From positions 71,274 through 135,273 of the forward strand of contig JAIXWV010000041.1 in NCBI GenBank assembly GCA_027491115.1: a stretch of 64,000 nucleotides of DNA, written 5' to 3'. This document shows, in pieces, positions 38,613-48,517 of this stretch. The translations under genes and the position numbers were made by a program. Under the pieces are notes generated by a model that had not been told where the DNA came from, searched no databases, and saw only the letters and a program-made list of their open reading frames with translations. This stretch comes from Pseudomonadota bacterium (GTDB lineage: Bacteria; Bdellovibrionota; UBA1018; CAIMNF01). The stretch's first letter is position 1. Each line of letters starts with the position of its first letter.

Positions 38613-38686
38613 GGCTGCCGAAGGAGGCGTCACCATGATCCGCCAACCCCTTGATCTTAATCAGCTCAAGCAGATCCACGAAAAAA

Positions 38687-38722
38687 GAGTACAGTGTACA
38701 CAATTTAGTGTACGGTGTACTC
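38687..38722. promoter_or_regulatory. 36-bp near-perfect palindromic operator abutting the pump start codon
   Basis: Of 18 symmetric positions 15 are complementary. The core is built from GTGTAC/GTACAC half-sites arranged twice. It ends at the base before ATG 38723, so a bound dimer (or two dimers) would block transcription start or elongation. The TetR gene at the end of this operon is the obvious candidate ligand, as in many pump operons. Confidence 0.7.
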
Positions 38723-41700
38723 ATGAAACCTGACTTTCTGCAAAAATACTCGCGTGTCATCCTTGTGGTGGGCTTCAGCCTCATGTTGTTCGGCCTTCTC
38801 AGTTACTTCGTCATGCCGAGCCAGGAAGATCCCACCATCCGGAACCGCAACGCCGTCGCCACCCTCGTCTACCCGGGAGCGGGTCCGGAAAAAATCGAGC
38901 GATTGGTCCTGCGTCCCATCGAAGACGCGCTCGGTTCGGTATCCGGTCTCAAGGAGGTCGAATCCGAGGCACGCCTGAATGTCGCCATCCTGAAACTCCG
39001 CTTGCGGGATGACATCAAAGAAATCAGTGAGACCTGGCGTGAGGTGGAGCGGGCTCTCGAGGAAGCCCAAGGCCAACTACCAAAAGAGGTGAACCGCCCC
39101 CTACTCGATTTCCATGTGCTGGATATCGAATCCGTAGTCATTGCGGTGACCGGCTCTGACAATCTGGTGGAGCTCCGGAATGCGTCGCTGACCCTGAAAG
39201 ACGCGCTCCTGAAGCTGCCGGATGTTGCCCGAGTGAAGCTCTTCGGAGATCCGGGTCCTGAAGTCGCCATCACCGTGAATCCGGAAGCCATGAACCGCCA
39301 CGGGATCAGCGCGGGACAACTGTATTCGGTTTTGAAATCGAACAACTCCGCAACTCCCACCGGATTCATCGTGGACCGGAACCAGCGGATCGTGCTTGAG
39401 CAGGATAACGACGCAAAAAGCCTCGATCAGCTGAAACGCTTGCGTTTTGAAACGGGCAAACTCGAGGAGGTGGAGCTGTCTTCCTTCGCCCGGGTCGACC
39501 TGACCACACAAAACCCGCCGCAAGCCGTCTTCCGGTGGAACGGACACCCTGCCATCGGACTTGGAATCGTCGCGAAAGAAGCCATCAACATTGTCGCCTT
39601 CGGTGACCGGATCCGAAACGATCTCTCCGCCATAGAAAACTTGATCAAACCCTTGAAAGTCGAAATGGTGGCGTTTCAACCGAAACGTACCGAGGATCGA
39701 CTACGGGACCTCTTGTGGAGTCTTTTCACCGGGATCGTACTCATTGTTGCTTTCCTGAGCTGGACCATGGGTGCCCGAACGGCTTTTGTGATCGGGTTCT
39801 CGGTACCCGCGATCAGTCTCATCGGACTATTCGCCTACTTTCTGATGGGAGGAGTGATCCATCAAATCTCCATCGCAGCCTTTGTGATCTCCATCGGGCA
39901 ATTCATCGACAACATCATCGTCATTGTCGACAGCATGAAGCGAAAAATGAATCGCGGGATCAGCCGCATCGAAGCCGCCGAAGAGGTCTCGAAGGAACTG
40001 CAGCGCCCGATGCTTTTTGCAACCCTCACGGGGATCTGTGCCTTCCTCCCCATGCTTGCCTCCGAAGGATCCACCGCGGACTTCGTGTTCTCCTTACCCT
40101 TGGTTGCAGTTCTGACCCTGATTGTGAGTTATTTCTTCGCGATCTTTTTCGCCCCACTCCTCGCCGCTCATACCCTGGAATCCGAGCAACGCGAGGTGAA
40201 ACTCCCCTGGGCTCAACTCGAAACACTCGTTTCATCGCTCGCAGTCGGTCCGTTCAAAAGGATCGGCCTTCTGGTCCTGTTGATCCTGGCCGTTTCCATT
40301 GCATCCTGGATTGGAGTGAAAAAAGAGTTTTTTCCCGAGTCCGATCGCAATGAGTTCCTCCTGACCTTCAATCTAAGCCCAGCATCCGACATCGTCGGAA
40401 CACTCGAAGTCTTGAAATTCGCTGAGGAACGCCTACGAGAACTGCCCGAGGTCACCCAGGTGGCCGCATTCGCGGGAGGAGGAATCCCGAGATTCTACTA
40501 CAATCTACCGAACCCGCTCCGGGCTCCCCAATCCGGCCAGCTCCTGGTCACCACCAAGAACTCAATGGACGTGAAGGGAGTCGGACTCAAAATGGAGGAA
40601 CTGCTGACACTCAAGTTCCCCCAGGTCAAGAATGTCGCGCACTTTCTCCAACAAGGCCCTCCGATCAATGCCAAGGTCGAAGTTCAAGTCTTCTCGGACT
40701 CGAAAGAGCGTAGACAGGCCTTGATTCAAAAGGTCGAGCAGCTGTTCCGGAGTGAAAAAGGGCTCCGGGGAATCCGAACCGATCTGGACGAGCCCCTCCA
40801 GGTGCTCCGCTTGATAATGAACGAAGAGAAAATGGCCCAAGCCGGTCTCAGCCGCGAGGAAGTGAACTTGGCCTTGGCCCTCCACAGCACGGGCGTGGAA
40901 GTGACCCAATTCCGATCGGGTCGGGAGCTCGTACCGGTCAGGCTGAAAACCCTCACCCATGTCCAGACGACCGAGAAGGAGCTCGGACGGGTGCTGGTGA
41001 AACGCGGACGGGATCGGGACTACCGGGCACAAGAACTGATTCGGTCCGATCGCGAGCCGGAATCACCCTTGATCCGCCGCCTGAACTCCGCCCCTTTTTC
41101 AAGGGCCCTTGCTGATCTGACGCCCGGGTACAGCTATGATCAAGCTCTCGGGACTCTTCAACCCAAACTCGCGGCGATTCCGCTCATCAACGGGGAAAGG
41201 CTGGCGTTTGCCGGTGATGCCAAGGGTGCCGGCGAAGCCAACGCATCGATCTTCCGCATCGTACCGATGGCGATGCTATTCCTGGTGGTCTTCCTTCTTC
41301 TTGAATTCCGGTCGATCCGGAAGGTCCTGATCGCCCTCACCGCTCTTCCGATCACAGTCCTAGGTATCTTTCCGGGTTTGTACCTCGGGAGAGCCCCGTT
41401 CGGATTCATGTCTCTGCTCGGACTCTTGGCATTGGTCGGGATCGCGGTGAACAACATCATCCTGTTGCTCGAAGCCATGGAAGACGAAGTCTCGATACAA
41501 GCTGCGATCGCCTCGAGATTCCGTGCGATCTTCTTGACGACCACGCTCACTCTCCTCGGATTGATCCCCCTGGCACTCGAGGACTCCTCACTCTGGCCTC
41601 CATTGGCCTGGACGATGATTTCAGGACTGATCACCGGCACCTTCGCAACTTTGGTTGTCGTACCGGCCCTGTACCGTCTTGTTTTCCGTTCCAAAACCAA

Positions 41701-43006
41701 GCTGACCCCTACGGGTGGTCTGAGTCTGATGCTCGCTCTCTTGCTCATTCACCTCACCCCTCCGGCACAAGCATCGGAAAAACCGTGGACGATCCAGGAA
41801 GTCATCGAGCGAGTCCATCAGACGCCGGAGTCGAGGGCATCCGCACTCGCTCCCCGATCGGCGCAGGAACTCAAAAAAGCGACCGACCACTCGGCTTTTC
41901 TACCTCGGCTCACCATGGGAGGTGAATTCTTCCAGCGGAACCGTGACCTCACCCTCACCACACCGTTCGGACCTCTCCTCACTGAGGAAAGTACCCGATA
42001 CCAGGCCCAAATCGAGTTGCGCCAACCCTTGTTCAACAAAATGAAAATGTGGAACGATCGTGACGCACAAGACAAACACCTCCAGTCGGAGATCGCTCAC
42101 GACACCCAGAACCAGAGGGACCTGGAGTTCGCTGCAGCCGCACAAAGCATCGAAATCCTCATTCTGGAAAGGCAGTCACGATTCATGACAGACTCGGCGG
42201 AGCTGTTGACCACCAGGCGTCGCAATGTCGCCCGGGCCATCGAGAAAGGACGTCTTGGAAGATCGGACCTCGTAAAACTCGATCTGGCCTTGGAACGGTT
42301 GAAACAACAACAAGAGGAAGTCGGAACACGGATCCGGAACCTCAAATCAGAACTCGCTGAGCGACTGGGCTTGGAAGGCTTGATCAGTCTCCAATCACCA
42401 CCCTTGGTGAGTCCAAACGGAATCCGGGACCTTGAGAAACTCGAAAGCCCTGCCCTGAAAGCAAAAGCCCTCGAAGCCGAAGCCGAATCGTTTGCTGCCC
42501 AAGCCCGAGGAACCCAAACATCCTTCATTCCAGCTGTCGACGGGTTTGCGCGGGCCCTGAGTGTTGATGGCAGGCGTTTGAACGAAAAGCTGTGGAGTGA
42601 GGTCGGACTCAGCATGAGCTGGGAGATCTTCGGAGGCGGCGCACGAGGTCCGCAAGGTCGAGCTTTGGCGCTCAAGGAGGAGTCACTGAGGCTTCAATCC
42701 TTGGGACTTCGTAGGACCCAGAAACTCGAGGAAGCCGAGGCGCTCCGCAACCTACGGGACCGGCTGAGCTGGAAAGCCCGTGTCGAGTCTCTCTACCCAC
42801 AGGCCAAGCTCGTTGCAGAAAACGAGGCCAGGCGGTATTTTGAAGGTCGAGGTAACTTGAACGACCTCGTCGAGGCGGACAGTGTTGAGTTGGAATTGGA
42901 GCGTGACAAAGACCTGAGTGCACTCGAGGCTTCAATGGCCTGTTATCGAGTGATGGCACTGAAGGGGCTCAAGGTGAACGAACGATGCAAAATCGAAGTC
43001 CAATGA
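38723..43006 (+). CDS. RND efflux pump fused in frame to a TolC-like outer-membrane factor
   Basis: A 1427-residue reading frame. Residues 1 to about 990 are a complete AcrB/HAE1-type RND transporter: first membrane helix, porter regions, a middle helix block with an intramembrane Asp pair region (IGQFIDNIIVIVDSM), second porter half and final helices. Residues about 998-1013 form a signal-peptide-like segment (LALLLIHLTPPAQA). The remaining 410 or so residues are a TolC/OEP helical-barrel protein. No stop codon separates them. An internal ATG at 41728, with GGTGG about ten bases before it, could start the channel separately. No periplasmic adaptor (HlyD/AcrA-type) gene is adjacent. Start 38723 sits directly behind the operator. 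Confidence 0.85.
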   Translation: MKPDFLQKYSRVILVVGFSLMLFGLLSYFVMPSQEDPTIRNRNAVATLVYPGAGPEKIERLVLRPIEDALGSVSGLKEVESEARLNVAILKLRLRDDIKEISETWREVERALEEAQGQLPKEVNRPLLDFHVLDIESVVIAVTGSDNLVELRNASLTLKDALLKLPDVARVKLFGDPGPEVAITVNPEAMNRHGISAGQLYSVLKSNNSATPTGFIVDRNQRIVLEQDNDAKSLDQLKRLRFETGKLEEVELSSFARVDLTTQNPPQAVFRWNGHPAIGLGIVAKEAINIVAFGDRIRNDLSAIENLIKPLKVEMVAFQPKRTEDRLRDLLWSLFTGIVLIVAFLSWTMGARTAFVIGFSVPAISLIGLFAYFLMGGVIHQISIAAFVISIGQFIDNIIVIVDSMKRKMNRGISRIEAAEEVSKELQRPMLFATLTGICAFLPMLASEGSTADFVFSLPLVAVLTLIVSYFFAIFFAPLLAAHTLESEQREVKLPWAQLETLVSSLAVGPFKRIGLLVLLILAVSIASWIGVKKEFFPESDRNEFLLTFNLSPASDIVGTLEVLKFAEERLRELPEVTQVAAFAGGGIPRFYYNLPNPLRAPQSGQLLVTTKNSMDVKGVGLKMEELLTLKFPQVKNVAHFLQQGPPINAKVEVQVFSDSKERRQALIQKVEQLFRSEKGLRGIRTDLDEPLQVLRLIMNEEKMAQAGLSREEVNLALALHSTGVEVTQFRSGRELVPVRLKTLTHVQTTEKELGRVLVKRGRDRDYRAQELIRSDREPESPLIRRLNSAPFSRALADLTPGYSYDQALGTLQPKLAAIPLINGERLAFAGDAKGAGEANASIFRIVPMAMLFLVVFLLLEFRSIRKVLIALTALPITVLGIFPGLYLGRAPFGFMSLLGLLALVGIAVNNIILLLEAMEDEVSIQAAIASRFRAIFLTTTLTLLGLIPLALEDSSLWPPLAWTMISGLITGTFATLVVVPALYRLVFRSKTKLTPTGGLSLMLALLLIHLTPPAQASEKPWTIQEVIERVHQTPESRASALAPRSAQELKKATDHSAFLPRLTMGGEFFQRNRDLTLTTPFGPLLTEESTRYQAQIELRQPLFNKMKMWNDRDAQDKHLQSEIAHDTQNQRDLEFAAAAQSIEILILERQSRFMTDSAELLTTRRRNVARAIEKGRLGRSDLVKLDLALERLKQQQEEVGTRIRNLKSELAERLGLEGLISLQSPPLVSPNGIRDLEKLESPALKAKALEAEAESFAAQARGTQTSFIPAVDGFARALSVDGRRLNEKLWSEVGLSMSWEIFGGGARGPQGRALALKEESLRLQSLGLRRTQKLEEAEALRNLRDRLSWKARVESLYPQAKLVAENEARRYFEGRGNLNDLVEADSVELELERDKDLSALEASMACYRVMALKGLKVNERCKIEVQ

Positions 43007-45743: not shown

Positions 45744-45808
45744 TTCAATCATTTTAATGATTCAAAATCCTGTTTCCTGAGAAACAAATCACATGAGAAG
45801 ATTCAAAC

Positions 45809-48517
45809 ATGGTTGCTTGGATTCTTCTTTCCCTGTTCCTCCCCTCCACCGAAGCCGCTGATGATTTGGGAACCCTGATCAAGCGGATCAATTGGTCGGA
45901 ACTGAACCTGCCGTTCGTGGCCAAGGTCCCCTCGGGAAAAAAATATTACCGGCTGACCTTTGAAGATGATTTCAAGGGCAAGCCGGATCAGTCCACCCGA
46001 AGCAACTACTGCTACGACGTTGCCAAGCCTCAGTGTTCCACCTGGTGGCAATCTGGTGAGACGACGAAGGACTGTCTCGACACCAGTCACACGCCCCCCA
46101 TCCGGGCCAATCTGAAATCAGCGCTTTACTCTTTGAACCCAGGTTCGAATTATGAGGGCCTTTCGCTAACCTCCATCCAGCAACTCTACGGTCAAACTCT
46201 GCAAGATAACTGGAAGCACCTCAACAAGTGCAACTGGGTCAGTTATTCGGGTGTGAACTGGATGGCCACGGATTACGGGAATCCGCCCCAGTATTCGTCA
46301 AAAATGGACGCATCTCAGGTAACGGTCGATCCCCAAGGTAAAGGCTACCTCATCCTTTCTGCTCGCAAAGGAAAGGTTGTAGAGGATTGTGCCTTCGGTG
46401 GCACCCATCACCTCTTGCCGAGTCGAGTGAGGACGGGGAGTGCGGAATCAGCCTGCCTGATCAAACCAGTGCCAGGGCTGGCCGGGCCCCTGGGAATCTA
46501 CTGGGTTGATAGTGACAAAAAATGGCCTGGAATCTACTACGCAAAAATCAACGGACAGTGCAGTTACGGTGGGCAAACGACTGCTGAAAGTCCGAACTGT
46601 CAGGTTCTCACCTTCAACCCAGGCGAACTGAGCCCCATGATCCGCTATGGGCTGGTTGCAGTAAACGGATCCGCTCAGTTGTTCTACTCAAACCACCAGA
46701 AGTTCGCGTGCCAGGACCACATTGAATACCCGACCAGTGGCGTAGCATTCAATCAGCTGAGCTGCCCAGTTTTAAATGGTGGAATTTCCTCAAAACACTT
46801 TTTCAATTCATCCGATCCGACCGACATGGCGGGCAAAAACGGTTTCTCTCAGCAGAACGGAGTTTTCGAGGTGAAGTTGAGGATCCCGAAGGGACCAGGC
46901 GCTTTTCCTGCCGCTTGGCTCATCCCGACGCGTGGAGGGTGGCCCTATTCCGGTGGAGAAATCGACATCATGGAGGCCCGGGACGATGCGAATGAAGTCC
47001 ACCAAACCTATCACCACGGCAAATGCATTGATTTTGTGAATCAAACCGAAATTTTACAAGATCCTGAAAACCCATTGGCCCGTGTCGAAAGTGGGAACTG
47101 TAGCAAGGCCCAGAATGCTTCCTCGGTCCAGTATTCGAGGGGGATTACCACCAGGCAAGTGATCGAAAACGAGTTCAACTCCCGAGATCATGTGTTTACC
47201 GCAGAATGGGATCAGACCGGAATCCGCTACTACGTCAACAACCGCCTGATGGATTCGATTCAAACAGGTTCCACCCCTGAAAAATACACCCATCTCGGAG
47301 GGTATCTCAATAGCCTGTCCACATCCCCCACGAATCTACCCGATGCCATTCCATCAAATCTTCGACAATTTACGGCAATCAACATGCCCCGGGACCCCTT
47401 CTACTGGATCCTGAACCACAGCACTTATGTGACCCAAACGGATCTGGGTAACTGGCAGAGCCAACACTTTCTGATCGACTACGTGAAAACCTACTCCTTA
47501 TGCCAGACACAAAAGGACTTCTGTCCGAATGGGGGCATTTTCCAAGAAGGCGTGGGTTGTGTTGTCACCAACCGCGATGGCCTTCAGACCATTCAGGCAT
47601 CTGCATGCGTGGAAAGCTTCAATTCCCGATTGTGCCCGAACGGGGGAAAACAGGCGGGACCGAATTGCTGGGTCCATGGATTTTCCAAACCGAAAATGAT
47701 CCCAGGAGTGAATTACTGGGTGGATCATCATCCCGCCTACGCCGGGATTTATTACGCAAAGGTGAATGGTGAATGCCCTTTTGGCGGCTCAAAGGGCGTG
47801 AATTGCATGATTGACAGTATCTCGCCAGGCATAGGCCCGAATGAAAACAGCAAGGTCCTCCCGGGCATTCAGTACTGGGTGGATACGAATCCTTCCTGGC
47901 CGGGCGTCTTTTACAGAAAAATCAACAACGCATGCCCGCTCGGCGGAAGCGGTCCTGCGAACAGTCCCAATTGCCAACTCCGTAGCTATCCTTCGGGGGC
48001 GCTGAGAACCACCGTCTCCTATTGGGTGGATACCGATCCACGTTGGCCAGGAGTGTATTACCAAAAAACGAAACAAGGATGCCCTTACGGAGGCACCTCG
48101 AGCGGGACCAGTCCGAACTGTCAGTTGACTCCCATGAGTGTCCCCTCGTTGTATCTGAATCCGAATGTTCAATATTGGGTGGATACCGATCTCAGATGGC
48201 CTGGACTGTATTATGCGAAGATCAACGGTTCTTGTCCATATGGAGGCAGCGTCGGTGTGAATTGCCAACTGAAGTCCTTTCCACTGACGGAAGGACCCTA
48301 TGTGATGCCGAATGTGAATTACTGGGTGGATACGAATCCTTCCTGGCCGGGAATTTACTACGCGAAAATCAATGGGGCCTGTCCTTATGGTGGAACTGCC
48401 GGTGTGAATTGCCAACTCCTTGCTTTCCCTGCTGGAGTGGTGGAGCCAGGGGTGAACTACTGGGTGGATAAGGATCCGAGATGGCCCGGAGTCTATTACC
48501 TCCCGGATTTCAGATGA
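45809..48517 (+). CDS. Secreted GH16-like glycoside hydrolase with repeated Cys/Trp modules
   Basis: A 902-residue secreted protein with a signal peptide (about 1-17). The catalytic core has GGEIDIMEAR, the GH16 ExDxxE signature with E384, D386 and E389, so cleavage of a beta-glucan, agar or carrageenan-type polymer is expected. A module built on YWVD..P.WPG.YYAKING.CPYGG....NCQ occurs seven times: once inserted before the catalytic motif (about 228-265) and six times in tandem at the C-terminus (about 634-902), where the last copy is cut short. Two CPNGG motifs precede the tandem array. The modules are probably disulfide-bonded carbohydrate or cell-surface binding units, but I cannot name the family. 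Confidence 0.8.
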   Translation: MVAWILLSLFLPSTEAADDLGTLIKRINWSELNLPFVAKVPSGKKYYRLTFEDDFKGKPDQSTRSNYCYDVAKPQCSTWWQSGETTKDCLDTSHTPPIRANLKSALYSLNPGSNYEGLSLTSIQQLYGQTLQDNWKHLNKCNWVSYSGVNWMATDYGNPPQYSSKMDASQVTVDPQGKGYLILSARKGKVVEDCAFGGTHHLLPSRVRTGSAESACLIKPVPGLAGPLGIYWVDSDKKWPGIYYAKINGQCSYGGQTTAESPNCQVLTFNPGELSPMIRYGLVAVNGSAQLFYSNHQKFACQDHIEYPTSGVAFNQLSCPVLNGGISSKHFFNSSDPTDMAGKNGFSQQNGVFEVKLRIPKGPGAFPAAWLIPTRGGWPYSGGEIDIMEARDDANEVHQTYHHGKCIDFVNQTEILQDPENPLARVESGNCSKAQNASSVQYSRGITTRQVIENEFNSRDHVFTAEWDQTGIRYYVNNRLMDSIQTGSTPEKYTHLGGYLNSLSTSPTNLPDAIPSNLRQFTAINMPRDPFYWILNHSTYVTQTDLGNWQSQHFLIDYVKTYSLCQTQKDFCPNGGIFQEGVGCVVTNRDGLQTIQASACVESFNSRLCPNGGKQAGPNCWVHGFSKPKMIPGVNYWVDHHPAYAGIYYAKVNGECPFGGSKGVNCMIDSISPGIGPNENSKVLPGIQYWVDTNPSWPGVFYRKINNACPLGGSGPANSPNCQLRSYPSGALRTTVSYWVDTDPRWPGVYYQKTKQGCPYGGTSSGTSPNCQLTPMSVPSLYLNPNVQYWVDTDLRWPGLYYAKINGSCPYGGSVGVNCQLKSFPLTEGPYVMPNVNYWVDTNPSWPGIYYAKINGACPYGGTAGVNCQLLAFPAGVVEPGVNYWVDKDPRWPGVYYLPDFR

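Follow-up and report, generated by a model that had tools for sequence, protein, structure and literature searches.

Here we report a GH16 protein, encoded within a 64,000-nucleotide stretch of genomic DNA from a member of the Bdellovibrionota (hereafter the window), that is fairly probably an endo-beta-1,3-glucanase equipped with a multivalent glycan-binding tail and with a nested pair of the same modules inserted once near the cleft. In the arrangement proposed, six tail modules of ~46 amino acids, each three-stranded and probably disulfide-bonded, would jointly bind glycan in a multivalent manner. A tandem pair of modules, inserted once into the loop between the YLILSAR and ISSKHF strands just before the catalytic strand, would be placed to hold or orient the chain near the substrate cleft. 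The repeated unit is most likely a small disulfide-bonded module with glycan binding as its putative role; we infer the disulfides, the binding, the position at the cleft and beta-1,3-glucan as the ligand from the data below.

The protein occupies the interval named in an earlier sequence-only reading of this DNA and is read in a single frame of 902 residues; its parts are as follows (window positions, strand).

45809..48517 (+), predicted secreted GH16 protein with eight module copies, 902 aa, from a Bdellovibrionota bacterium
45809..45859 (+), probable signal peptide, residues 1-17, n-region uncharged (sequence only)
45938..46387 (+), GH16 domain, N-terminal part, residues 44-193, last strand YLILSARKG (alignment with insert-free homologs)
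46094..46201 (+), extra segment, residues ~96-131, in insert-bearing homologs only (homolog alignment)
46388..46540 (+), inserted unit I1, residues 194-244, CAFGG...ACLI...IYWVDSDKKWPGIYY (ends IYY)
46559..46687 (+), inserted unit I2, residues 251-~293, CSYGG...NCQV...RYGLVAVNGSAQLFY (ends LFY)
46706..47503 (+), GH16 domain, C-terminal part, residues 300-565 (Pfam, profile against PDB)
46958..46975 (+), catalytic motif EIDIME, residues 384-389 (nine-homolog alignment)
47504..47632 (+), Cys-rich linker, residues 566-608, with a half-unit at 572
47633..47755 (+), tail unit T1, residues 609-649
47774..47914 (+), tail unit T2, residues 656-702
47933..48061 (+), tail unit T3, residues 709-751
48080..48214 (+), tail unit T4, residues 758-802
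48233..48361 (+), tail unit T5, residues 809-851
48380..48499 (+), tail unit T6, residues 858-897, complete in the corrected phase

The only Pfam family matched by the open reading frame was Glyco_hydro_16 (PF00722; 26.3 bits, cut-off 22), and a profile of nine homologs searched against the PDB recovered the Thermotoga maritima laminarinase at E 1.2e-23, along with many other solved laminarinases. The motif EIDIME lies at residues 384-389, where an ExDxxE had been reported, and its E, D and E are invariant among the nine aligned homologs. Taken together, the Pfam match, the laminarinase structures and the intact motif identify the enzyme as GH16 of the laminarinase kind, which bears out the earlier assignment; judged by these matches it is a beta-glucanase with its catalytic motif intact, and its predicted activity is beta-1,3-glucan hydrolysis. 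Secretion is likewise predicted, and the signal peptide is clearer in the ortholog L026 than in the window protein. Directly upstream of the ATG, at window positions 45793-45809, the out-of-frame sequence ATGAGAAGATTCAAA is found; the predicted signal peptide has no charge at its beginning, and the assembly may contain a frameshift in this region. The last 22 bases of the gene (48496-48517) are shared with the end of a LysR-type regulator gene that converges on it.

The repeat had been described in the phase YWVD...CPYGG, with seven copies. The repetition is genuine, and all seven YWVD-type motifs are present (starting at residues 231, 636, 689, 738, 789, 838 and 884), but the proposed module was out of phase and the total is eight, six units in the tail and two inserted, the second inserted unit having been overlooked. 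The phase is given by a secreted Planktothrix protein of 154 aa (L029), in which a signal-like start is followed by two complete units in the C...YY phase, beginning CPFGG or CPYGG and finishing IYY or LYY; since these two units terminate the protein, the unit spans CxxGG to VYY. A unit starting at YWVD was rejected, because the array would then begin and end with a half copy. The unit therefore reads C-x-x-G-G…N-C-Q…Y-W-V-D-x-x-P-x-W-P-G-V-Y-Y, has a length of 40-51 aa and is separated from the next by six residues. In this phase the seemingly truncated last copy of the tail is complete, so that the six C-terminal copies reported earlier are all confirmed, none of them truncated and neighbours exactly six residues apart. 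A closed six-bladed propeller was considered for the tail and is disfavoured, because units elsewhere come in twos and threes. Across 49 units the first Cys is conserved in 100% and the second in 98%, in agreement with the two conserved Cys per unit noted before, while the YWVD tyrosine is kept throughout (100%), the tryptophan less strictly (86%) and the last tyrosine nearly always (94%). A disulfide bond within each small unit is plausible. As a point against glycan binding, the aromatic and glycine positions that never vary may belong to the core rather than contact the ligand. Tandem Repeats Finder detected no DNA-level repeat, which indicates that the module copies are old.

The presence of a copy ahead of ExDxxE was also confirmed, with the qualification that it is a tandem pair rather than a single copy and lies within the GH16 domain rather than in a separate N-terminal part. 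Similarity of the inserted copy to the others is far beyond chance: with the tail copies alone as the query it was recovered at E 1.3e-12, and with a two-unit profile, which contains tail units of the window protein, at E 1.3e-16 in a search of the complete 2.5-Mb genome. No other units of the protein are as diverged: when one protein at a time was left out of the profile, the inserted ones scored 24 (I1) and 16 bits (I2) versus 52-69 for the tail units. In I2 the aromatic hairpin is eroded to RYGLVAVNGSAQLFY, with YWVD/WPGVYY lost in both the window protein and L026, and the unit aligns column for column and without a break with an intact unit of L030 and L031. As the inserted units of the window protein are the most eroded, their own binding may have been lost.

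The insertion amounts to ~105 residues; it follows the strand that ends in YLILSAR and precedes strand ISSKHF, shortly before the catalytic strand. The sequence to either side of it (left ...QVTVDPQGKGYLILSARKG, right LSCPVLNGGISS...NGFSQQNGVFEVKLRIPKG) can be aligned with insert-free homologs, which have a short Cys-containing loop where the modules sit; the insertion therefore falls within the GH16 domain, in the loop that follows YLILSAR. This placement relies mainly on the family alignment, because the match of the N-terminal GH16 strands to solved structures, though colinear, is a very weak segment in 4crq (-0.4 bits), and because a full-chain model built from five sequences was unusable (mean pLDDT 45.8); few stretches of that unusable model score as high as the inserted pair, which reaches 82.

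The insert occupies the same loop in four proteins: the window protein, L026 (G130), a Bacteriovorax MAG protein to which the window protein is 56% identical, and the deltaproteobacterial orthologs L030 and L031, which are ~42% identical and carry two canonical units at the insert site. It is absent from seven homologs, namely L004 (the C12 paralog, encoded on a different contig of the window's genome), L005 (G007), L054 (G292), L040, L041, L055 and L056. The extra segment ~96-131 is common to the same four insert-bearing proteins and absent from the other homologs. In a tree of GH16 cores from which the modules had been cut out, these four are separated from the remaining sequences by a branch with support 91/96, which, together with the absence of the insert from the seven others, suggests that it probably arose once, in a single event.

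Module quality is distributed unevenly between insert and tail. In the window protein and L026 the tail is canonical and the insert eroded, while L030 presents the reverse (insert units 61 and 58 bits versus tail units 23 and 30), and in L031, with insert units of 62 and 53 bits, the balance is intermediate. Each protein keeps at least one canonical set, which speaks for a binding role, and a single set of good modules may plausibly suffice. L030 (694-2898) and L031 (773-2995) start with a lipobox-like LAAC or LSAC and have a long Asp/Thr-rich linker, features that suggest surface lipoproteins.

Among 11 other genomes of the same genus a relative of the window protein was found in one (G007), without the insert, a scattered occurrence that suggests horizontal transfer. 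Within the genus the LysR and thioesterase genes on either side are scattered as well, and synteny or empty-site comparison there is consequently uninformative. Elsewhere in the window, at 38651-43003 (+), one open reading frame encodes a complete AcrB-type RND pump (residues 36-1011) and, C-terminal to it, an OEP/TolC-type outer-membrane efflux domain (1272-1419). Another genus has a relative of this C-terminal part (G029, C8:102486-103742), again within one frame, of ~1494 aa, and the pump-channel fusion may therefore be real.

No named carbohydrate-binding family had been recognised in the module, and this holds after profile searches. Nine unit pairs compared with Pfam at E up to 10 gave no match except one chance hit, NCBIfam gave none outside GH16, and the unit profile had no significant match among PDB sequences; a coronavirus spike entry at E 0.02, weak and from an unrelated context, was set aside as chance. 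A model of the unit pair has a mean pLDDT of 86.8, with three strands per unit (YWVD, GVYY and NCQL). With this model Foldseek returned nothing under E 1 from its PDB and viral sets and VIA-align 2 nothing significant, a missing match not amounting to proof; weak VIA-align rows (Z 2.2-2.6), mostly to proteins containing beta-propellers, were not taken as evidence.

The module was found mostly on GH16 enzymes, among them a second group of divergent sequence. This second type (L040, L041, L055 and L056, from Bacteriovorax-like genomes) has about three strongly diverged C-terminal copies. In other proteins the module accompanies DUF3011 and a ricin-B lectin domain (L032, from a Beggiatoa relative), a PAN domain (L082) or DUF4751 (L033), the latter two from a groundwater deltaproteobacterium; it is also present on an unassigned 800-residue protein (L028) and stands alone in the secreted Planktothrix protein. 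This distribution is a lower bound, because it comes from one scan of a genome collection with strict patterns; no module units were found in the phage, plasmid and viral-contig collections. Next to a module protein in an Oligoflexia MAG, L025 (8954-10837, -) contains four tandem CPxGxFDGANCxV...FIYxNxFYY repeats, which have no Pfam match. Like the unit, these run from a Cys through N-C to an aromatic pair at similar spacing, but they are without the YWVD/WPG motif; L082 carries an in-between unit (CPHGGRFDGSNC...YHVDTHPSWPGVYY), intermediate between the two.

Several readings of these units compete with glycan binding. They could be purely structural, without a ligand of their own, acting as disulfide-stabilised spacers or as a protease-resistant stalk that distances the enzyme from the cell or stabilises it. 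The fixed six-residue spacing of rigid-looking repeats, the retention of an eroded insert and the lack of a fold match to a known binding module are all in keeping with such a role, yet the module stands alone in the Planktothrix protein and elsewhere adjoins lectin-type domains, and its aromatic residues (Y 100%, W 86%, last Y 94%) are conserved beyond the needs of a spacer, so that we regard this as unlikely. Binding to protein or peptidoglycan, for example as an anchor to the bacterium's own or a prey cell surface rather than to the GH16 substrate, would accord with the unrelated partner domains (PAN, DUF4751 and the unassigned 800-aa protein) and with a phylum whose members include predators of bacteria; the concentration of the module on GH16 enzymes, in both groups, argues against it and makes it quite improbable.

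A further proposal concerns the insert only and is compatible with a binding tail: the nested pair may by now be a part of the enzyme that shapes the cleft and its specificity and no longer binds. The pair is eroded in the window protein and L026 yet kept, insert-bearing proteins share the second extra segment at ~96-131, and loops around the cleft are known to change specificity in GH16 laminarinases (PMC5595797). Against this stand the inserted pairs of L030 and L031, fully canonical (61/58 and 62/53 bits) as would be expected of a working module, and we hold the proposal to be possible but somewhat doubtful. Glycan binding by the modules, multivalent in the tail and with the nested pair holding a chain at the cleft, remains the reading that we prefer. 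Whether the unit (~46 aa, one disulfide, three strands) founds a new and unusually small CBM family, represented in Bdellovibrionota, other 'Deltaproteobacteria', Gammaproteobacteria and Cyanobacteria, and including GH16 enzymes with a nested tandem pair, is close to an even question, on which we are tentative. If true, such a very small two-Cys module, found repeatedly on glucanases, next to a lectin domain and by itself, would be a convenient new glycan-binding unit, and natural orthologs, some with the nested pair and some lacking it, would make possible a direct comparison of the role of an intracatalytic binding module.

The window protein shares its catalytic domain and ExDxxE with the solved laminarinases of T. 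maritima (3azx/4dfs), ULam111 (5wut) and 4crq (profile E 1e-23 to 1e-20); where these have a short loop, it has ~105 residues with two modules, and it has six further modules in its tail. The insertion had been called unusual, which is fair, although precedents exist (PMC7848910, PMC5725463). The catalytic domain of the GH10 xylanase Pm25 / Xyn10C contains two inserted CBM4 modules, which were shown to bind xylan cooperatively; catalysis is reported to survive their removal, with product pattern and kinetics on soluble substrate unaffected (PMC7848910). As in the window protein, a tandem accessory pair is nested in the catalytic domain; the differences are a GH10 barrel with CBM4 modules of ~160 aa each versus GH16 with an unmatched ~46-aa module that is also present in the tail. 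EngU, a GH148 enzyme with a nested CBM4 (PMC5725463), and SusG, cited in PMC7848910 as a GH13 enzyme with a nested CBM58, likewise have a binding module within the catalytic domain, in their case single large CBMs of known families, unlike the module of the window protein. Given Pm25, EngU and SusG, the architecture is already known in kind, while the module itself, compared with Pfam, NCBIfam and the PDB, looks new.
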